Positions 13,776 to 25,263 of a stretch of 34,417 nucleotides of DNA are shown piece after piece. Each line of letters starts with the position of its first letter. The first letter of the stretch is position 1. The notes beneath the pieces were generated by a model. The model did no database searches. It saw only the letters and a list, made by a program, of their open reading frames with translations, and was not told the DNA's origin. This stretch comes from Betaproteobacteria bacterium (lineage in GTDB: Bacteria > Pseudomonadota > Gammaproteobacteria > Burkholderiales > SG8-41): assembly GCA_016199545.1 (NCBI GenBank), contig JACQGN010000206.1, forward strand, positions 1 to 34,417, given 5' to 3'. The position numbers and the translations under genes are program-made.

Positions 13776-15460
13776 CAGACGATCCACTCCGAGACCGGGG
13801 CGCGCGCCTGATGGAGGGGCTGGGCGATCACGTCGACCAGGACCGGGCCATCGTGGCGCACGGCGGCAGCAAGCGTCGCGCGCAGCTTTGCCGGATCGCT
13901 TACGCGCCACGATTTCACCCCGAAGGCGGCAGCGACTGCAGCGTGATCGGTGCGGCCAAAATCGACGGAATAATAGCGGCGATCGAAGCTCGACTTCTGT
14001 CCCGCCTTGATCCAGCCATAAGTGGCATTCGATACCACCAGCATCAGCAGGGGCACTTTCAATCGGACGACGGTCTCGAGCTCGCCGCAGGTGAAACCGA
14101 AGCTGCCGTCGCCCATGACCGCCACCGCCCGGGCTCCGGAGCGGGCAAAATGAGCGCCGATCGCCGCCGACATCGCGTAGCCCAGCGCGCCGTGCGCCCG
14201 ATTCGAAAGGAAATGGCGCCCCGGACGCCGCAGTTCGTAGTATGCCGAGAGATAGGGGCAGGGCGTACCGGGGTCGGCGACGATGATCGCGTCATCGTCA
14301 AGCACCGCCCGCAGATCGGATACGATCCGCTCCGGCGTGATCGGGCGGGTGTTGCTGCCGGCGAGTCGCCGGAATTCCGAAAACTTGGCAACCTTCGCCT
14401 GCGCGACGGCGCGAGACGCTGCCTGCGAGCGCTTGCGCCACGACGCACGCACGCCAAGCTCGCTGCCCAGCGCGTGCAGTGCAAGCTGCGCGTCCGCCTG
14501 AATCGCGACATCGGTGGGGTAGTTCACGCCGAATACCCCCGGGTCCACGTCGATGTGTACGACGCGCGCCGAGCCGGGCAGCGGATGGCGCCATTTCTCG
14601 GTGGTGACCGAACCGGCGCGGCACCCGATGAAGACCACTACGTCGGCGCTGTCGATGACCGTCCGCGTAGGCAAGGTGCCGCCGTTGCTGCCGATCACGC
14701 CTGCCACGAGCGGGTGCGTGTCCGCGAGCGAGCCTTTGCCGCTGACGGTCGTGCACACTACCGCGCCGAGCTTCTCCGCGAGCATCCGCAGTTCCCTTGA
14801 TGCGCCCGAAATCAATACTCCACCGCCGACCACCAGCGCGGGCTGGCGTGAGTGCGCCAGCACAGCGGCGGCAGCGCGTATCGCGGCAGAGTGCGGCCCG
14901 ATGCGCAGCGCGGGAACTCGCGCAAACTCCGGATCGGCGTGCAGAGCCGAAGCGTCAACCGTTTCCCGTTGCACGTCCAGTGGCAATCCAAGATGGGCCG
15001 CACCCGGGCGACCGGTCGTCATCTGGCGAAACGCCTCGCGCACGGCAAGAGGCACGCGGTCGCCGCGGTCCACCACATGGGTCGATTTGGCCACGGGCCC
15101 GAACAGTGCTTCCTGATCGAGTTCGGTGAGGGTAAAACGGCCACGGCTCACCACGGGGATGTCGGTGGTGATGCAGAGCATTGGAACTGACGACTCATTT
15201 GCCTCTGCCACGCCCGGTAGAATGTAGGTAGCGCCGCCGCCGCTCGGCCCTTCGCACACGCCGACCCTGTTGCTTACGCGCGCGTAGCCGTCGGCCATAT
15301 AGGCCGCCGAACGTTCGTCGCGCGTGAGAACGTGGGTCATGCCATGCTTCAGGCGATAGAGCGCATCATAAAAGGGCAGGCTGGTATCGCCGCACAAGCC
15401 GAAGATGTGCGTGACGCCTTGCAACGCCAGCATTCGCACCAGGGCGTCTGCACCCGTCAC
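13775..15460 (-). CDS. Thiamine-diphosphate enzyme, acetolactate synthase-like
   Basis: A 561-residue TPP-dependent enzyme of the acetolactate synthase/benzoylformate decarboxylase superfamily. I start it at GTG 15460, which overlaps the upstream stop by GTGA and follows a GGGGA ribosome site; the longer open frame would run back through the hydrolase gene. The PYR domain has the catalytic glutamate at position 49 (TRDERSAAYMADGYAR), and the PP domain has GDGSFGF…N, the magnesium/TPP motif. There is no small regulatory subunit gene nearby, and the substrate could be any of several 2-keto acids or aldehydes, so the catabolic role is undefined. It is coupled to an alpha/beta hydrolase–OsmC fusion. 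Confidence 0.88.
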   Translation of the reverse strand: MTGADALVRMLALQGVTHIFGLCGDTSLPFYDALYRLKHGMTHVLTRDERSAAYMADGYARVSNRVGVCEGPSGGGATYILPGVAEANESSVPMLCITTDIPVVSRGRFTLTELDQEALFGPVAKSTHVVDRGDRVPLAVREAFRQMTTGRPGAAHLGLPLDVQRETVDASALHADPEFARVPALRIGPHSAAIRAAAAVLAHSRQPALVVGGGVLISGASRELRMLAEKLGAVVCTTVSGKGSLADTHPLVAGVIGSNGGTLPTRTVIDSADVVVFIGCRAGSVTTEKWRHPLPGSARVVHIDVDPGVFGVNYPTDVAIQADAQLALHALGSELGVRASWRKRSQAASRAVAQAKVAKFSEFRRLAGSNTRPITPERIVSDLRAVLDDDAIIVADPGTPCPYLSAYYELRRPGRHFLSNRAHGALGYAMSAAIGAHFARSGARAVAVMGDGSFGFTCGELETVVRLKVPLLMLVVSNATYGWIKAGQKSSFDRRYYSVDFGRTDHAAVAAAFGVKSWRVSDPAKLRATLAAAVRHDGPVLVDVIAQPLHQARAPVSEWIV

Positions 15461-16707
15461 AGGGGATTCCCCGCCGGCGCATCGGCAAGCCGCGTCGGGA
15501 TCACGACCTCCGAGTGCAGCGTGCGGTGCACCGGGCATTTGCTAGCGATCTCCAGCAGGCGCTGGCGCTGCGCGGCGTCGAGCGGGCCGGTGATTTCGAT
15601 CTCGCGGTCGATGCGGTCGACCCTGCCATCACGGGTTTCGCATTCAGCGCAATCGGCCGCGTGAATCTTGTCGTGCCTGAGTTTCACGACGACACGTTCG
15701 AGCGGCCATTGCTTCTGGTCGGCGTAGAGGCGCAACGTCATGGAAGTGCACGCCCCCAGGGCGGCAAGCAACAGAGCGTACGGCGACGGGCCCGTGTCGT
15801 TGCCGCCGTGGCTTACCGGCTCGTCTGCGTGCAGCCGATGCGGGCCGACGCTGACCATCTGCGCGAGACGACCCGCGCGTGTCTCGGCGACGGTCACCTC
15901 ATCGCGTTCGGCGACGCCGCCGGGTGCGGCGCTTGCGCTCGCCGAGCCGATGTAACGGCTCGCCCAGGCGCTCAGTACCGCGGCCACATAGACCGCGTCC
16001 TCTTTTCTCGTGAGCAGATGATCCGCATTGTCGAGTGACACGAAGCTTTTCGGATGTTTGGCGGCCATGAAAATCTGCGCCGCGTTGTCGATGCTCACCG
16101 TGGTGTCGCGCGGGGAATGAAATACGAGCAGGGCCTTGCGCAGTGATGCGATGCGTTCAATGGGCGCCTGGCCTGCGAGGTCATCGAGAAACTGCCTGCG
16201 GATGCGAAAGCTGCGGCCGGCAAGCGTGACCTCGGCCTCTCCCGCCTGCTCGATTTCGGCAAGGGCGGGCGCGAGCAGGCGGCGGACGTGTGCAGGATCG
16301 AACGGCGTGCCGATGGTGGCGATCGCCACGCTCTCCGGAATCTGGCTCGCCGCCGCGAGAACGGCTGCGCCACCGAGGCTGTGCCCGACCAGTATGGCCG
16401 GGGCCGCGTGGCGCTCGCGCAACCATGCCGCCGCGGCGACCAGGTCAGCCGCGTTCGACGAGAAGTTGGTGTTGGCGAACTCGCCTTCGCTGCCACCCAG
16501 CCCGGTGAAGTCGAAGCGCAGTACGCCGAATCCATGTGCCACGAGGGCGGCTGCGATGCGTGTTGCGGCGAGTGACTCCTTGGAACACGTGAAGCAATGC
16601 GCAAACAACGCAAACGCCACAGGTGCGGCCGCGGGCAATTCGAGGCGGGCCGCAAGGAGTGCGCCGGATGCGCCGGCAAAACGAATCATGTTCGGAGCGG
16701 CAGTCAT
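15457..16707 (-). CDS. Bifunctional alpha/beta hydrolase – OsmC family protein
   Basis: A 416-residue fusion. Residues 1 to about 255 are an alpha/beta hydrolase with nucleophile S110 in GHSLGG and probable acid and base D201 and H230. From about 270 an OsmC domain follows, with the two redox cysteines C320 (LGACTSM) and C391 (CPVHR) that reduce organic hydroperoxides in Ohr/OsmC proteins. The start chosen is ATG 16707, behind GAGGA; upstream codons in the same frame lack family resemblance. The fused form is known in Proteobacteria. Its stop overlaps the TPP enzyme start. It is divergent from a Bug-type binding protein, suggesting one regulated unit (inference). Confidence 0.92.
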   Translation of the reverse strand: MTAAPNMIRFAGASGALLAARLELPAAAPVAFALFAHCFTCSKESLAATRIAAALVAHGFGVLRFDFTGLGGSEGEFANTNFSSNAADLVAAAAWLRERHAAPAILVGHSLGGAAVLAAASQIPESVAIATIGTPFDPAHVRRLLAPALAEIEQAGEAEVTLAGRSFRIRRQFLDDLAGQAPIERIASLRKALLVFHSPRDTTVSIDNAAQIFMAAKHPKSFVSLDNADHLLTRKEDAVYVAAVLSAWASRYIGSASASAAPGGVAERDEVTVAETRAGRLAQMVSVGPHRLHADEPVSHGGNDTGPSPYALLLAALGACTSMTLRLYADQKQWPLERVVVKLRHDKIHAADCAECETRDGRVDRIDREIEITGPLDAAQRQRLLEIASKCPVHRTLHSEVVIPTRLADAPAGNPL

Positions 16708-16881
16708 GGTGGGGTCCTCACAGGCGCGCTTGACGCCTGATCGTAGCATGGCGCGCGACAGCATGAATGACCTCCTGCCCGGGGGAACTTGACGCCCCTT
16801 TTCCGCTCTCATCGCGGTAGCTGGTATGATTTGCCGGAATGTGTTGCGTGGACGTGCGAACTACAAACGAGGAGGGTAATG

Positions 16882-17859
16882 ATGAATGTCAAGCTACAGA
16901 GCCATATTGCCGGGATTTTCTGCGCCGCGGTGATTCCCGGGGTAGCCCTGCCGGCGCAGTCTCAGGGGTATCCCAACAAGCCTGTGCGGATGATCATTCC
17001 GTTCGGCGCGGGCGGCTCGACCGACGTGCTCATACGCATCGTCGCGACGAAGCTGCCGGAAAGCTTGGGCGAGCAGGTGGTGATCGACAACCGTACGGGT
17101 GCCGGAGGTCTTATCGGGACCGAAATCGCGGCAAAATCGAACCCCGACGGATACACTTTGCTTGGTACCGGAACGCCGCACACCATTGTTCCTAACCTGT
17201 ACAAGAACGCGCCGTTCCATGCAGTGAAGGATTTTGCGCCGATCATGCAGATCGCGAGCCAGCCATACGGCCTGGCGGTGCATCCCTCGCTTGGCGTCAA
17301 ATCGGTCAAGGAGCTGATTGCGCTGGCGAAGAAGGAGCCCGGCAAGCACAACTACGCTTCCTCGGGCCAGGGGGGCGCGATGCACCTGTTCCAGGCGCTG
17401 TTTGTCAGCATGGCCGGCATCGACATCGTGCACGTCCCGTACAAGGGCAGCGGGCCGGTGCGGGCCGACCTCGTAGGTGGCCAGATCAAGATCGGCTGCC
17501 TTGGCCTCTCGAGCATCATGCCTCACTACCGGGCGAAGCAGTTGAACATCATCGCGGTGACGAGCGCGAAGCGCTCACCCGAGTTGCCTGACGTTCCTTC
17601 CATTGCCGAAACCCTGCCGGGCTATGATGCGTCGCTTTGGACCGGGTTGCTTGCGCCGCGGGGAACCCCGGCAGCCGCCATCGAGCGCATACACCGCGAA
17701 GTCACGAAGTTGCTTCAGACTGCGGAGGTGCGGACGGCGTACCAGCGGCTGGGAACGGATGTCGTGGCCACTGATCCGAAGGCCTTTGCCACGTTCGTGC
17801 AGGTCGAGAACGACAAATGGGGCAAGATCGTGCGCGACCTCAAACTGGTGGTCAAATAG
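16882..17859 (+). CDS. Bug/TctC-type periplasmic solute-binding protein
   Basis: A 325-residue exported binding protein of the tripartite tricarboxylate transporter receptor (Bug) family. A signal peptide (residues 1 to about 27, ending near ALPAQSQG) precedes YPNKPVRMIIPFGAGG, the family entry motif; ENRTGAGGLIGT-like IDNRTGAGG follows. I prefer ATG 16882, five bases after GGAGGG, over ATG 16879, which is only two bases from it. No TctA or TctB membrane gene is in the window, so it is an orphan receptor, as most Bug proteins in Betaproteobacteria are. Ligands are typically carboxylates or aromatic acids; none can be named here. Confidence 0.93.
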   Translation: MNVKLQSHIAGIFCAAVIPGVALPAQSQGYPNKPVRMIIPFGAGGSTDVLIRIVATKLPESLGEQVVIDNRTGAGGLIGTEIAAKSNPDGYTLLGTGTPHTIVPNLYKNAPFHAVKDFAPIMQIASQPYGLAVHPSLGVKSVKELIALAKKEPGKHNYASSGQGGAMHLFQALFVSMAGIDIVHVPYKGSGPVRADLVGGQIKIGCLGLSSIMPHYRAKQLNIIAVTSAKRSPELPDVPSIAETLPGYDASLWTGLLAPRGTPAAAIERIHREVTKLLQTAEVRTAYQRLGTDVVATDPKAFATFVQVENDKWGKIVRDLKLVVK

Positions 17860-18758: not shown

Positions 18759-21071
18759 TCACCGGACAACGGCGCTGCGCACAACGAACTGCGGCGCGTC
18801 AAAGGCGGTGACGGACGGCAGCGCTCCCTGGAAAAGTTCCACTTCCACGAGGGTGGTGAGCGCGCTGCAGCCCTGCGTGAGCTTCGAGGTGCCCTTGTCG
18901 AGGGTCAGCACATTTGGATTGCCGTGCTTCTCCAGCGTACCGATTTCTCCCGGCGCCAGCGGGTCGTACCATGCGCCGGTGGGAAGCACGGCCACCCCTT
19001 GCCGCACGCCGTCGCTGATCTTGACACCTGCGAGGCACGCGCCGCGGTCGTTGAACACCCGAACGACGTCGCCAGTCTTGATCCCGCGCGCGGCAGCGTC
19101 CTGCGGGTGCAGGGTGAGCGCTTCGCGGTCTCGAATCTTGGCGGCGCGGCTGACGCTGCCCTGATCATACTGGCTGTGGAGCCGCGTGGCGGGTTGATGC
19201 GAAATCAAGTGCAGGGGATAGCGCCGGGCGAGCGGCGCGCCCAGCCACTCGGCAGGTTCGTACCACGCCGGGTGCCCAATGCAGTCGTCGTAGCCGAAGG
19301 ATGCGATGGTCGAGGAGAAAATTTCAATCTTGCCCGACGGCGTGGGCAGCCGGTTGGCGCCCGGGTCGGCGCGATAGGCGCCCAGCATCACCGGCGGCTC
19401 GTCCGGTGGCGGCATCTCGACGTAACCCTCGGCCCAGAAAGCTTCGAACCCGGGCAGTGACAGATCGAACTTGCGGGCGCGCACGCGTGCTTCATCGTAG
19501 AGGTGGCGGAGCCACACCGCGGCGCTGCGGCTCTCGGTGAATTGCTCCTTCGCACCCAGCCGCTCGGCCAGCGCGCTGAAGATCTCGTAGTCATCGCGCG
19601 CTTCACCCACGGGCTCGATCGCGCGCTTCATCGCGATCATGAAGCGGTCGCGCGAAGTGGAGCCGATATCATCGCGTTCCAGCATGGTGGTGGCCGGCAG
19701 CACGATGTCGGCCATTTTCGCGCCCGGGTTCCAGTATTGCTCGTTGACGATGATGGTTTCAGGCTTGCGCCACGCCCGGATGAGGCGGTTCAGGTCCTGG
19801 TGATGGTGGAATGGATTGCCGCCCGCCCAGTAGATGAGCCGGATATCCGGATAGGTGCACGCCCTGCCGTTGAACTCGTAGCGGCCACCTGGGTTTTCCA
19901 GCATGTCGGCGATGCGCGCGACCGGGATCGGCGTCTTGACCGCGTTCTGGCCCTGCGGCAGCACCGGCCCCGAGAAAGGGCGGGCGTTGGCGCCTTCGAT
20001 CCCGACCGGGCCATAGGCGAGGGCAATGCCGCCGCCGGGTGTGCCTATTTGCCCAAGGAGACAGGCGAGGGCGATGCCCATCCAGTACGGCTGCTCGCCG
20101 TGATCGCCGCGCTGCAGCGACCAGGCGACGCTGATCATGGTGCGATTTGCGGCCATGCGTCGCGCAAGCGCAGCAATCGTATCCGCCGGAATGTCGCAGA
20201 TGTGCGCCGCCCAGTGCGCGGTCTTGGGGACGCCATCCGCTTCGCCCATGACGTATCTGCGGAACGGCTCGAATCCTTCGCAGTAGCGCTCGAGAAACGC
20301 AGGATCGTGACGGCCTTCCGCGATCAGGGTGTGCGCGAGGCCCAGCATGAAAGCGGTATCGGTGTTGGGCCGCAGCGGCATCCATTCCACACCGAGCGCG
20401 GCGTCCAGATCGTCGCGCAGGGGCGAGACGTTGACGAACCGCACGCCCGCACCAGCGAGGCCCTTCAACGCCGGACGTGCTTCATGCTGACTGATGCCGC
20501 CGGAATTGACCTGTGTATTCTTGCCAGGGATGCTGCCGAAGGCGACGAGCAACTGGCAGTGTTTTTCAAGTTGCACCCACGCGGTCTGCTGCGCGCGCAG
20601 CGCGTCCATGTCCATGACGATGTGCGGCAGCAGGGTGCGCGCGGCGCCGAGGCTGTAGGTGCCGACGTGCGCGACGTAGCCGCCGATCGCGTTCATGAAG
20701 CGGTGTACCTGGCTCTGCGCGTGATGGAACCGTCCCGCGCTCGACCAGCCATAGGATCCGGCAAAGATCGATGTATTGCCGAATTGCGTCTTGACGCGCT
20801 TCAGTTCCCCGGCGGCCAGCGTCAATGCCTCGTCCCAACCGACCTTGACGAAGGGTTCCGCTCCACGCCTTTCGGGCGCCGCGCCGGGGCCGCCTTCGAG
20901 GTAGCTCTTGCGCACCGCCGGGTACCGTACTCGTGTGGGGCCGGTAACCGCAGCGGCGAGTGACTGGCCGATTGGCGAGGGGTCGGGGTCCCGCTCGAAA
21001 GAAGCGATCCGCGTGATGCGCCCGGCCTCCACCGTTACGTCGTAAACGCCCCAGTGGGTGGAAGTCAGCAT
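18759..21071 (-). CDS. Molybdopterin oxidoreductase, biotin/S-oxide reductase (BisC) type
   Basis: A 770-residue enzyme of the DMSO reductase family, in the group of biotin sulfoxide reductase and TMAO/DMSO reductases. The opening STHWGVYDV and the block [14 protein letters not shown] are characteristic; S111 is the expected molybdenum ligand, which separates this group from cysteine- or aspartate-ligated enzymes. There is no N-terminal 4Fe-4S motif and no Tat signal, so a cytoplasmic BisC-like reductase is most likely. Later motifs include [21 protein letters not shown] and [14 protein letters not shown]. Upstream on the same strand lie a small membrane protein and a four-domain rhodanese. 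Probable substrate: a sulfoxide or N-oxide such as methionine or biotin sulfoxide; not determined. Confidence 0.9.
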
Positions 21072-21169: not shown

Positions 21170-21352
21170 TTACGCCAGTAACCGCAGCGCAACGGAAAAC
21201 ACGCCGAAATTGACCGCGATCACAAACATCGCGTAGGACCACAAGGGCTCGCTGTTCGGATCCCACAGACCTCGCAGGGCGTGACCGAGCGTGCCGCAGG
21301 CGACGATCGCGAAACCCAGCATGAAGGCGCGCTCGAGGTCGGGTGGGCGCAA
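21170..21352 (-). CDS. Small two-helix membrane protein (hypothetical)
   Basis: A 60-residue frame starting at TTG 21352, three bases after the rhodanese stop; ATG 21322 is an alternative giving 50 residues. Two hydrophobic segments are visible (FMLGFAIVACGTLGHALRG and LWSYAMFVIAVNFGVFSVAL) with a short polar turn (DPNSEP). No ribosome site is obvious, so translation probably depends on coupling to the rhodanese gene. The family is not recognised. Confidence 0.55.
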   Translation of the reverse strand: MRPPDLERAFMLGFAIVACGTLGHALRGLWDPNSEPLWSYAMFVIAVNFGVFSVALRLLA

Positions 21353-21355
21353 GGG

Positions 21356-22939
21356 CTAACGCGTTACGCCCACCTTGAACGCCGCCTTTTCTTCGGAGTC
21401 AAGCTGGGCCATGAGGCCGGTTTCCCAGGCGAGGTACTGCTTCATCGCCTCGCGGTTGCCGGCGTGGCGGTCGTGCACGAAGTAGAGATGGTCGATGCAC
21501 TCGGTGTCAGGCGGCACGTCGGGTGAGGATTCGGCCGTATAGCCCGCTTTGGTCCAGGCAGCGAGACCACCATTGAGTATTCGCACGTCCTTGGCGCCGG
21601 CTTCAGTGAGGTCAACCGCGGCGAGGCGTGCAACATCGGGATTGTCGGCGATGAGCACGATGGTTCCCGCAGCATCATGCGCCGTTGCCGCAACACGGGG
21701 CCGGATGCTCCAGCGGCTGCCGGGAATGTGCGTCTTGCGGAAATTCAAACTGGCGCCGATGTCGATGACGCTACAGGTGCCGGTGTCGAGCGCGCGTTTG
21801 AGGTCGGCAGCGGATATCTCGGGCAGTGGCGGCAGTGTAGCTTTCTTCGGCGGGTTCCCGCGCAGACTCGAGCGCACCCCGCCTTCGAGCACGTACGCAT
21901 CGCAGCCCAGTTGCCTGAGCCATGCGGCAACCACCGGGGCGCGCACCTGCTCGCCGCCGTCGATCAACACGATGCGCGCGTTGCGCACACCTACCCATTG
22001 GTCGGTGGCCTGCACCAGTTGGCCGCCGGGTGCGTGCACCGAGCCCGGAATCGACCCCGCTTCGAATTCCTCCGGCGTGCGGACATCGCAGAGATAGGTC
22101 GTGCGGCCGGACTCGTCTAGCCATTTCTCGACGTCACGCGCGCTGACTGAGTTCACGCTGTGTCGCGCCATCAACTTGCGCGCGGAATCCTGCAGCGCCG
22201 GCAGGCGCGATGCGTCGATGCGGTCCGGATAGCGGCGGCTGGCGCCGCGCTCCAGTTCGAAGTCGGCAAGCACCCAGCCCTGGGTGCCGTTCTCCAGCGC
22301 AAAGACGGGATTCTCGATGCCGAAGTTGAGCAATGTCTGCGCGCCCATGATCGAGCGCGTGCGGCCGGCGCAGTTGACGACGATCTTCGTTTTCGGACTC
22401 TTGACGATGTCGCGAATGCGATACGGAAGCTCCGCGTTGGGACAGCAGATGCCGCCGGGGATGTTCATCTTCTGGTACTCGGTGTAAGGCCGACCGTCCA
22501 CGACGATAAAGTCCTCGCCGCGCTCGCGCATCGCTGCGAGGTCCCGCACCGTGACGCGCGGCGTGTGGTAGACGTGCTCGACCAGTTCGCCGAACAGCTT
22601 GCTCGGCACGTTGACGCCTTTGAACAGGGTGTAGCCTGCCGCTGCCCAGGCCCTGGTGCCGCCGTCAAGCACCGACACGTCCGTGTAGCCGAGAGCCGAG
22701 AGCCGCCTGGCTGCGAGCACAGCAACACCGGAGTCTCCATCGTCGCATAGCACGATGCGCGCTGAAACACGCGACACCAGCGCACCGATGTCGAGTTCCA
22801 GCCGGCTATAGGGCAGCGGTGTCGCGAACAGCAGGTGCGATTCGCCGAACTGCCCCGGCTCGCGCACGTCGAGCACTGCCAGTTCGCGCCCGTCCTGGAG
22901 CATGGTGCGTAGTTGCCGGGCGGCAACGGTGCCGGTCAT
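21356..22939 (-). CDS. Four-domain rhodanese-like protein
   Basis: A 527-residue protein made of four rhodanese domains in series. Domain 1 (about 1–105) has an active-site cysteine C65 in LCDDGDSG. Domain 2 (about 118–235) has C190 in NCAGRTRS, the best sulfurtransferase loop. Domain 3 (about 262–360; [20 protein letters not shown]) has D327 where the cysteine should be (LIDGGEQV). Domain 4 (about 372–470) also lacks it (LIADNPDV). So two domains look catalytic and two structural or regulatory. A helical tail (470–527) contains [21 protein letters not shown] 22939 overlaps the RhlE stop by four bases. It probably moves or senses sulfane sulfur in the cytoplasm; the partner is unknown. Confidence 0.92.
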
Positions 22940-24339
22940 TTGTGGGATTTCGCGTGGGTCGATGCGCCGCCGAGCAGCGCCGCCGCCGGCCGCGACGGCT
23001 GGCGGCGCAACGGGTGAGTGATTTCCGGCTTGGTTGCAGTCGAGGGCGAGGGCTCGTATGGCTTGCTGAAGTCGATCTCACGAGCGCCGGAGTTGCGGGG
23101 CTCCACGAGTTTGGGTGCGCTGCGCTTTTCGCGTTTCTCGTGTCTCTCGGATCTCTCGTGCCTGTCCCGCTCGTACGTGGGACGCGGTTTTCCGCCACCG
23201 CGGTCGAACTCCGGCGCGGTCACGCGCGGGAGCGTGCGCTTGAGCAGCTTCTCGATCTCGGCGAGGAGCCTGTTCTCGTCCGGGCTCATCAGAGAAATGG
23301 CCTCACCCGGCAATCCGGCCCGCGCGGTGCGGCCGATACGGTGCAGGTAATCTTCCGGCGTGTAAGGCAGTTCGTAGTTGATCACGTACGGCAGTTCCAC
23401 GATATCGAGGCCGCGCGCCGCGATGTCGGTGGCGACCAGTACCGGCGCGCGTCCCTGCTTGAAATCGGAAAGCGCCTGTTCGCGTTCGGCCTGGGTGCGG
23501 TCGCTGTGGATCGCGGTGGCGCTGATCCCGTCGCGCACCAGTTCACGGGCGAGCCGGTTCGCGTCGCGCTTCATGCGCACGAACACCAGAGCCTGGGGAA
23601 TGTTGCGCGTTCTGATGAGATAGCCAAGCAGGGCGCGTTTGCGGGTTGCGGGGACCTCGTAGACCTGGTGCGTGACCAGATCTGCCGTGGCGTTGCGCCG
23701 GGCGACCTCGATCATGGTCGGCTGGCGCAGGAGCTGGCTGGCGAGTCTCCGGATCTCGTCCGAAAATGTCGCCGAGAACAGCAGGTTCTGGCGCTGGGCC
23801 GGGAGCACTGCGAGGATGCGCTTGATATCGGGCAAAAATCCCATATCGAGCATGCGGTCGGCCTCGTCGAGCACCAGGATTTCCACGCGCGACAGGTTGA
23901 CGCTACGTTGGTGCAGATGATCGAGGAGCCGCCCAGGGGTCGCAACCAGGATCTCGACTCCGCCGTGCAGCGCCTTCATCTGCGGAGTGATATCAATGCC
24001 CCCGTAGACTACCGTGGTGCGCAGGGAGAGAAACTTGCCGTAGATCCGCACGCTTTCCTCGACCTGGGCCGCGAGTTCGCGCGTAGGGGTAAGAATAAGC
24101 GCGCGGATCGGGTGGCGAGCCGGAGACAGGCTGGTGTTGGCCTGGGGCGCGAGCAGTTGCAGCAGGGGCAGCGTGAAGCCGGCGGTTTTTCCAGTGCCGG
24201 TCTGGGCGCATCCCATGATGTCGCGGCGCCGGAGGATCGCGGGAATGGCCTGGGCCTGGATCGGCGTGGGTTCCTTGTAACCTTGCTCGGCTACGGCGCG
24301 CAGCAACTCGGGAATCAGGTTCAGCGATTCAAAGGACAT
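22936..24339 (-). CDS. rhlE: DEAD-box RNA helicase, RhlE type
   Basis: A 467-residue ATP-dependent RNA helicase. Q motif PTPIQ (25–29), Walker A AQTGTGKT (45–52), motif Ia PTRELA, DEAD box VLDEAD (156–161), SAT (189–191), and [10 protein letters not shown] near 330 are all present. The last 90 residues are a disordered basic tail rich in Arg, Lys and Glu ([17 protein letters not shown]), typical of RhlE-like helicases acting on rRNA. The stop overlaps the rhodanese start (ATGA), so the two are expressed together. No strong ribosome site is visible before ATG 24339. Confidence 0.95.
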
Positions 24340-24642
24340 CTAAGGTAGTTTTGAGCGCGCGCCTCGATGAGGCGTGGCTGTCGGTTGTGGTCCCGCGGTT
24401 CGGGGAGCGGTATCGAATGCCGGGTCTACGGCGTCAGGCGGCAAGTGCACGGAGTAAGATTATACCCCGTGTCGGCGCTTTCCGTTGCGTCCGGGATCTC
24501 CGCCATAGTGCCGGGGAAACGCGGCGGCATATCCGCGAAAACTGCCAAATATTCAGAAATCTGGTAAATTGATGCGCTACATAACGTGAAGTGTGCCGGC
24601 CGCCCCGCGGCGGCCGGGCTAAGTGACGAGGTATCAGCAAGA
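24340..24642. other. Intergenic region between divergent rhlE and HNH genes
   Basis: This 303-base gap contains the promoters of both divergent genes, but none is clear. An AT-rich patch (about 24540–24575) includes TAAATT, a possible -10 for the HNH gene. A 6-bp hairpin (24360–24374) lies in the rhlE leader. A GC-rich stem, CCGGCCGCC (24596–24604) with its complement (24609–24617), precedes the HNH start. No gene is visible. Confidence 0.5.
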
Positions 24643-25263
24643 TTGGACACGATTCAGATTGCCGGCGAAAGCCCGGCCCAAGGCGCGTTTCCACTGATCC
24701 TGACGCTAGACATGCACGGAGTGCCCCATCGCTGGATCAGCTGGCAGCACGCCTGCTACTACTATGCCAAGGACCAGGTCGCGTGGAGTCTCGGCGAGCG
24801 TGCGTTCACCGTTCACGGCGGGTTGAACCGCGTCACCGGCGAACGCTCCCGGATTTCGGCCGCGAGCATCATCGCCATCAAGGGCAAGGCGATGGCGATG
24901 AAGTCTTTCGGGCAGGTGCCACCGCTGAACAATCGCGAGCTATTCCATCGCGACCGCCAGATGTGCGCCTACTGCGGGGGAATGTTCACGACTTCCAGGC
25001 TCACCCGCGATCATATCAATCCATTTTCGCGCGGGGGCAAGGACACGTGGATGAACGTCGTCACCGCGTGTCGTTCATGCAACGAAAAGAAAAGCGACCG
25101 CACGCCCGAAACAGCGCGCATGGAACTCATCTACCTGCCATATGTGCCGAATCGCGCGGAATACCTGATCCTGACCAACCGCCGCATACTGGCCGATCAG
25201 ATGGAGTTCCTGGCGCAGCATGTACCGGCCCAGAGCCGCCTCCATCACAAGTCAGCCCAGTAA
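24643..25263 (+). CDS. HNH endonuclease
   Basis: A 206-residue protein with a C-terminal HNH nuclease domain: zinc-binding CAYC and CRSC pairs flank LTRDHINPFSRGGKDTWMN, where the DH and N residues form the catalytic site. The N-terminal part (LILTLDMHGVPHRWISWQHA) is shared by a family of stand-alone proteobacterial HNH proteins whose role is not settled. I place the start at TTG 24643, eleven bases after GAGGT; the upstream GTG (24586) lacks a ribosome site and would translate the GC-rich hairpin. No phage or restriction genes are adjacent, so selfish or defence function cannot be claimed. Confidence 0.85.
   Translation: MDTIQIAGESPAQGAFPLILTLDMHGVPHRWISWQHACYYYAKDQVAWSLGERAFTVHGGLNRVTGERSRISAASIIAIKGKAMAMKSFGQVPPLNNRELFHRDRQMCAYCGGMFTTSRLTRDHINPFSRGGKDTWMNVVTACRSCNEKKSDRTPETARMELIYLPYVPNRAEYLILTNRRILADQMEFLAQHVPAQSRLHHKSAQ

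Follow-up and report, generated by a model that had tools for sequence, protein, structure and literature searches.

Positions 1-34,417 of contig JACQGN010000206.1 of the Betaproteobacteria bacterium assembly GCA_016199545.1 (Burkholderiales, SG8-41), a stretch hereafter called the window, encode on its reverse strand a protein of 527 amino acids (aa) with four tandem rhodanese domains and a conserved C-terminal tail (Rho4, 21356-22939), directly behind a gene for an RhlE-like DEAD-box RNA helicase. We find that Rho4 is a further member of the type represented by the solved structure 1yt8, placed in a gene order that is specific to the host family. The reading that we favor, with reasonable though not strong confidence, is that Rho4 acts in the disposal of sulfite and sulfane sulfur arising from organic-sulfur metabolism, that the place behind rhlE is a "sulfur slot" maintained by a single family of uncultured Betaproteobacteria and that RhlE is its housekeeping neighbor.

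Architecture and conserved residues of Rho4

A phmmer comparison aligned residues 9-516 of Rho4 at 42% identity (6e-119) with the Pseudomonas aeruginosa "thiosulfate sulfurtransferase" of PDB entry 1yt8, which we take to be PA2603, and a profile search recovered the same relationship at 8e-208. The AlphaFold2 model of Rho4 has a mean predicted local distance difference test score of 92.1 and superimposes on 1yt8 in Foldseek with template-modelling (TM) scores of 0.91/0.92. The two proteins share four rhodanese domains that correspond end to end, and both carry the loop CAGRTRS in domain 2 with the cysteine of the CxGRTR motif. By sequence and predicted fold, Rho4 is a four-domain protein of the 1yt8/PA2603 type, a known architecture and not a new one. 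The alignment also brought out differences, in that 1yt8 has no cysteine at the position of C65 in domain 1 and possesses one in domain 4, where Rho4 has an alanine. Rho4 also lacks an adjacent thiol dioxygenase gene, the neighbor expected from the 1yt8/PA2603 type, and is flanked in the window by rhlE and bisC; 14 of 26 loci examined outside the host family (see below) are likewise without a dioxygenase, and we regard this neighbor as a property of the locus that does not define the protein. Two other multi-domain rhodaneses were compared. The ergothioneine synthase EanB (6ktv and others) has weak sequence similarity (~1e-4) and a Foldseek E-value of ~1e-9, but whole-protein TM scores of 0.19-0.24 and 13-16% identity rule out Rho4 as an EanB-like enzyme. 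The Escherichia coli three-domain sulfurtransferase YnjE (2wlr) resembles Rho4 in its tandem rhodanese domains but reaches only TM scores of 0.23-0.25 and 14-17% identity.

A comparison of the catalytic-loop positions showed that: 1) C190, in the CAGRTRS loop of domain 2 (codon 22370-22372, reverse strand), is cysteine in all 93 sequences, the window included, and is the sole Rho4 cysteine present in all those compared. 2) C65, in the loop CDDGDSG of domain 1 (22745-22747, reverse strand), varies by lineage (the classes are defined below): cysteine occupies the position in 51 of the 52 class I rows and in 7 of the 8 rows of slot-type class II, as well as in 11 of the 20 rows of other class II proteins and 2 of the 13 remaining rows. 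3) The corresponding position of domain 3, D327 (21959-21961, reverse strand), is aspartate in all 92 sequences having a residue there. 4) In domain 4 the position is an alanine (A431). An earlier note on this DNA, made from the letters alone, had assigned the cysteines C65 and C190 to two domains and regarded the other two domains as having lost theirs; the cysteine assignments and their absence at D327 and A431 stand, but "lost" is the wrong word for D327, since aspartate occurs there in every sequence with a residue at that place. In the alignments, one sulfur site, that of domain 2, is common to all proteins compared and is joined by a lineage-specific second site in domain 1, and the aspartate of domain 3 is likewise read as a conserved feature and not as decay. 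Beyond the domains, Y502, L503, W505 and E506 of the C-terminal tail were invariant among 25 aligned sequences.

The rhlE-rho4 gene order within and beyond the host family

The helicase gene (22936-24339, reverse strand; 467 aa) specifies the Pfam domains DEAD (7e-49) and Helicase_C (5e-30); its best NCBIfam model is RhlE (PRK10590) at 572.8 bits, under the cut-off of 743, and we therefore call the product RhlE-like. The earlier note had described a helicase, a four-domain rhodanese and a molybdoenzyme encoded on one strand, with the first two genes overlapping by ATGA. Pfam domains were found in all three proteins (Rhodanese in four stretches of Rho4), and the rhlE stop and rho4 start do have four bases in common at 22936-22939 (reverse strand). 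No Shine-Dalgarno sequence was evident by eye ahead of the Rho4 ATG, and from the layout of the two genes rho4 is probably expressed from the rhlE transcript. A promoter and terminator scan of low power stayed at or below chance, with one promoter-like site in the region against 1.0 expected and none between the genes. The ratios of nonsynonymous to synonymous substitution rates (dN/dS) relative to the closest relative, genome G001, are 0.12 for RhlE, 0.21 for Rho4 and 0.16 for the BisC-like molybdoenzyme, and point to constraint on all three.

We searched 74 genomes of the host family, all drafts, of which 67 carry Rho4 at E <= 1e-60. Class I Rho4 (at least 52% identity) occurs once in each of 56 genomes, and class II was found at 43 places in 36 genomes; the neighborhood count disregards RhlE paralogs, recognised as lower-scoring second matches, and also three BisC rows of ~50% identity. 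In 48 of the 56 genomes class I rho4 has rhlE upstream, on the same contig and in the same orientation, and so the neighborhood, whose conservation the earlier note had proposed as a check, is not confined to the genome of the window; the first half of the condition that the note set for its refutation, occurrence in this genome only, thus does not hold. Measured between match ends, the gap in these 48 genomes is below 100 nucleotides (nt) in 7, 100-1200 nt in 26, 1.2-5 kb in 11 and above 5 kb in 4, with a maximum of 12.6 kb. By match coordinates the ATGA overlap occurs only in the window genome (G000) and G001, the next closest pair being that of G014 with 25 nt. Thus the helicase-rhodanese unit suggested earlier holds as a conserved order in the family, but its overlap belongs to two close relatives only, and so variable a spacing, between overlap and 12.6 kb, does not sit easily with an obligatory unit of RNA helicase and sulfur transfer. 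The window also has an HNH-endonuclease-type gene, divergent and upstream of rhlE (24586-25263, forward strand; HNH_5, 4e-16). Of the 46 linked rows other than the window, 42 have such a gene no more than 1 kb from rhlE on its upstream side, and the remaining four have less than 350 nt of sequence left there; the retention of this gene implies that the position is the same across the family.

Class I Rho4 without rhlE on its contig was seen in eight genomes, namely G006, G051, G073 and G086 (start less than 2 kb from the upstream contig start), and G087, G052, G079 and G082. In G087 no rhlE is present in the 32 kb upstream of rho4, which makes this genome a genuine exception over that distance, and in G073 rhlE together with tauE, and Rho4, lie near the ends of two separate contigs. 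An rhlE ortholog was recovered in 68 genomes, 12 of which (G073 not counted) have it on a contig without a Rho4 match; four of these contigs (G006, G016, G022 and G082) end within 230 nt past rhlE, and there is room of 6.5 kb in G068 and 8.9 kb in G087.

At the level of the order 31 genomes matched; 20 new loci from these and 7 earlier ones were examined, and once L025 (G012) had been dropped as a host-family member, 26 loci outside the family remained, with flanks of up to 1.5 kb, shorter at contig ends in L144 and L151. Within these flanks rhlE was beside Rho4 in none of the 26. A helicase-like open reading frame (ORF) ~1.6 kb downstream of Rho4 in L053 was not counted, being 25% identical to RhlE in an alignment unlike that of RhlE. 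Genomes G028 and G127, from another family of the same order, possess the HNH-rhlE pair without Rho4 within 1.5 kb, and their Rho4 proteins (57% identical) are encoded on a different contig from rhlE. Given these two observations, the rhlE link seems, in this sample of other families, to have arisen in the host family and stayed within it. A thiol-dioxygenase-like gene is instead found upstream of Rho4 in 12 of the 26 loci, directly in 11 and ~1.2 kb off in L148; apart from those in L050, L053 and L062, all thiol-dioxygenase calls reported here rest on tblastn with three queries. Such genes are also present at Rho4 loci of Variovorax (as in L103, where a 56% identical Rho4 directly follows the dioxygenase-like gene), Azospirillum, Oryzomicrobium and Pseudophaeobacter; none was found at the Reyranella and SAR116 Rho4 loci. 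The nearest solved structure for the L053 dioxygenase is mercaptosuccinate dioxygenase (5e-32), and for that of L062 the nearest are those of the 3MDO/CDO group (1e-84).

The slot behind rhlE is also held by a second Rho4 lineage. Seven genomes that have no class I Rho4 carry a class II protein (45-51% identical) there, with tauE in L124, L129 and L050, a sulfite-oxidase-type gene pair in L126 and L128, and neither in L125 and L127. A tree of 91 Rho4 rows, which omits L116 and L117 (L121 and L122 gave no usable Rho4), placed slot-type class II in a small clade well apart from class I. A single clade uniting the 52 rows of class I with the 8 of slot-type class II was rejected by an approximately unbiased (AU) test (p-AU 4e-11), run on a quick tree with groups named after tree inspection and with L123 (G059) included though its rhlE is on another contig. 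Either of two histories would explain the two lineages, namely replacement in place, or an ancestral pair of copies from which one was lost. In G007 (L050 6173-8407, reverse strand) the class II Rho4 behind rhlE and tauE is fused behind a thiol-dioxygenase-like domain, giving a protein of 744 aa, and the best solved match of that domain is mercaptosuccinate dioxygenase (8vni, 2.5e-27). Its alignment shows HNN for HNH and no histidine in the second motif, so that presumably two of the three histidine iron ligands of the thiol-dioxygenase family appear replaced, and the fused domain may be dead or altered. As a separate observation, six metagenome-assembled records labelled "Bordetella parapertussis" (L075, L078, L080, L083, L085 and L105) carry class I Rho4, 69-72% identical to that of the window; the Rho4 tree places them among uncultured Betaproteobacteria, and their names look wrong.

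Other genes around Rho4

The recognised occupants of the slot are mostly sulfur genes, comprising those for TauE/SafE, for a sulfite-oxidase-type enzyme with cytochrome b561 and for the thiol-dioxygenase-like domain, along with unrelated genes, among them a PrpD-type one. Among the linked rows of the tree set, 16 of 40 in class I and 3 of 7 in class II have a TauE/SafE-family gene that separates rhlE from rho4, as counted by tblastn with one TauE query and confirmed by Pfam for two of the proteins. The sulfite-oxidase-type gene accompanies Rho4 at short range in 4 of the 52 class I rows and in 3 of the 8 of class II; together with the cytochrome b561 gene it is on the strand opposite to rhlE, and among named models MsrP scores best, though its 76 bits are far under the cut-off of 207. 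This pair of a sulfite-oxidase-fold molybdoenzyme, weakly MsrP/SorA-like, and cytochrome b561 was noted in genus g2 (L046 9748-11146, L126 2666-4052, L128, L133, L134, L135 and L138), and in L135 and L138 it is present where Rho4 was not seen in the slot. Gaps of 2.9-12.6 kb separate rhlE and rho4 in nine genomes, and ORFs were called in two of them (L036 and L041), with the PrpD-type gene found there. The genome of the window (4.4 Mb, 78.7% complete) encodes seven TauE-family proteins, all away from Rho4, and a search of it for the thiol dioxygenase model PF05995, which also misses mercaptosuccinate-type enzymes, found none.

Downstream of rho4 the window encodes a BisC-like S/N-oxide reductase of 770 aa (18759-21071, reverse strand; Molybdopterin, 1e-54). 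It matches TIGR00509 over its full length at 1010.4 bits, missing the cut-off of 1017.55, and is named BisC-like on that account; its closest solved structures by sequence are the DMSO reductases 1dms and 1eu1. The open frame of 773 aa extends just three codons beyond the 770, which leaves no room for a signal peptide. The placement reported in the earlier note, following rho4 on the same strand, recurs in 12 of the 56 class I genomes at distances of 47-3592 nt; among these, G083 has rhlE, rho4 and bisC closely packed, only 54-74 nt apart. The small membrane protein which that note had inserted between the two is not supported as part of the gene set. Its 60-aa open frame (21170-21352, reverse strand) is probably not a gene: against G001 the dN/dS is 0.86 over only 50 codons, with 7 changes split 2/3/2 over the codon positions, the ATG start of the window is ATA in G001, and a Pfam scan gave no family at cut-off. 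Judged by eye, it may be what is left of a longer gene in another frame; a Pfam scan of an open frame in the relative gave no match. The rho4-bisC spacer as such (window 21170-21352; L031 10650-10913) is similar in both close relatives and looks non-coding or decayed.

Elsewhere in the window, an alpha/beta hydrolase and an OsmC-like domain are joined in a single open frame at 15460-16812, and an Rfam scan of the window gave no matches. TctC/Bug-type tripartite tricarboxylate receptor genes are common around Rho4 in the host family (window 16789-17859; a cluster of 47 members), and their abundance probably reflects merely an expanded family.

Possible roles of Rho4 and of its position

If Rho4 serves sulfite and sulfane-sulfur disposal, C190 of domain 2 would take up sulfane sulfur as a persulfide and pass it to sulfite or a thiol, C65 of domain 1 might be a second acceptor in this lineage, and domains 3 and 4 would act as scaffold. 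The TauE/SafE proteins of relatives would export sulfite or thiosulfate, and the BisC-like enzyme, judged by its family, might be a second, looser partner that reduces S-oxides. In the window genome the slot would have been compacted, bringing rho4 into overlap with rhlE, probably on the same transcript and with its start achieved by translational coupling, and RhlE would be a bystander with no part in the sulfur chemistry.

Published clusters offer comparisons. In the 3mdo-tst unit of Pseudomonas protegens the partner of the rhodanese gene is 3-mercaptopropionate dioxygenase and not rhlE (PMC12947264). In Advenella mimigardefordensis and Variovorax paradoxus, according to PMC5373536, rhodanese-domain proteins accompany a thiol dioxygenase and a molybdopterin oxidoreductase is discussed: a rhodanese-related sulfurtransferase belongs to the mercaptosuccinate dioxygenase cluster of Advenella, and for Variovorax the paper considers that sulfite may be detoxified by a molybdopterin oxidoreductase together with a rhodanese-domain protein. 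The Rho4 window is unlike the mercaptosuccinate dioxygenase clusters in having no dioxygenase adjoining Rho4. Several points count against the role in sulfur disposal that we favor. The literature examined yielded no proven role for the 1yt8-type family, and the sole mutant met with there, in tst of P. protegens, showed no significant effect on the 3-mercaptopropionate level (PMC12947264). In the window neither tauE nor a thiol dioxygenase is beside Rho4; tblastn detected no TauE in 24 of the 40 linked rows of class I, and the 14 outside loci already mentioned show no thiol dioxygenase. Finally, the slot is occupied by two separate Rho4 lineages.

The presence of molybdoenzymes nearby raises the alternative that Rho4 supplies sulfur for the maturation or protection of molybdenum-cofactor enzymes, both the BisC-like and the sulfite-oxidase-type. 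Sulfurtransferases of the YnjE or FdhD type are thought to serve such enzymes. Besides the downstream BisC-like genes and the sulfite-oxidase-type genes counted above, a close BisC, where a genome has one in addition to class I Rho4 (20 genomes, counted by eye), is linked to Rho4 in 12 cases, and PMC5373536 takes up the suggestion that a molybdopterin oxidoreductase may depend on a rhodanese-domain protein for the synthesis of its cofactor. Yet in 44 of the 56 class I genomes no close BisC follows Rho4 on the contig, distant Rho4 genes accompany thiol dioxygenases instead, and, as the BisC-like and sulfite-oxidase-type enzymes both act on sulfur compounds, shared substrates explain the company equally well. 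We consider this alternative unlikely. We rate as equally unlikely a purely regulatory linkage, in which the rhlE promoter would serve rho4 and other cargo alike, perhaps to bring about induction by cold or stress, and the cargo would have no single shared function. It would accommodate the variable cargo, including the PrpD-type gene with no evident sulfur role, as well as the apparent want of a ribosome-binding sequence before Rho4, but by inspection many of the cargo genes that could be recognised (tauE, sulfite-oxidase-type, thiol dioxygenase, Rho4 and BisC-like) are sulfur-related.

A direct cooperation, with the helicase opening structured RNA for thiolation by Rho4, could draw on the order and strand conserved in 48 of 56 genomes, on the second Rho4 lineage in the slot of the seven genomes without the first and on the ATGA overlap in two close relatives. 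However, gaps of 1.2-12.6 kb separate the genes in 15 of the 48, no rhlE adjacency exists in the 26 outside loci, and no RNA-thiolation enzyme was found among 13 window proteins (a subset of the window ORFs) scanned with Pfam. The 12 of 68 rhlE genomes without Rho4 on the contig also speak against it, if weakly, as 4 of these 12 contigs end within 230 nt past rhlE. The paper found to join RhlE with a rhodanese appears unrelated from its title and the beginning of its abstract, and in the titles, abstract beginnings and passages on an RNA helicase with a rhodanese, those of PMC9516567 included, no mention of an rhlE-rho4 gene pair was found. Nothing we found points to RNA thiolation, and the sulfur transfer to RNA that the earlier note had entertained is very improbable. 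The twice-filled slot implies that rhlE adjacency could matter more than a model of passive neighbors allows, but the version in which the slot is maintained because co-expression or contact with the helicase matters, with Rho4 loading sulfane sulfur onto RhlE-bound RNA or an RNA-decay protein, is the least probable of all; if true, it would tie mRNA turnover to sulfite or persulfide stress.

A story of RNA and sulfur is in this way replaced by a testable one, in which the partners of Rho4 across genomes point to the handling of sulfite and organosulfur compounds. The invariant C190 and D327 emerge as the residues of interest, and the two Rho4 lineages in one slot behind rhlE lend themselves well to the question of what holds a gene beside its neighbor.

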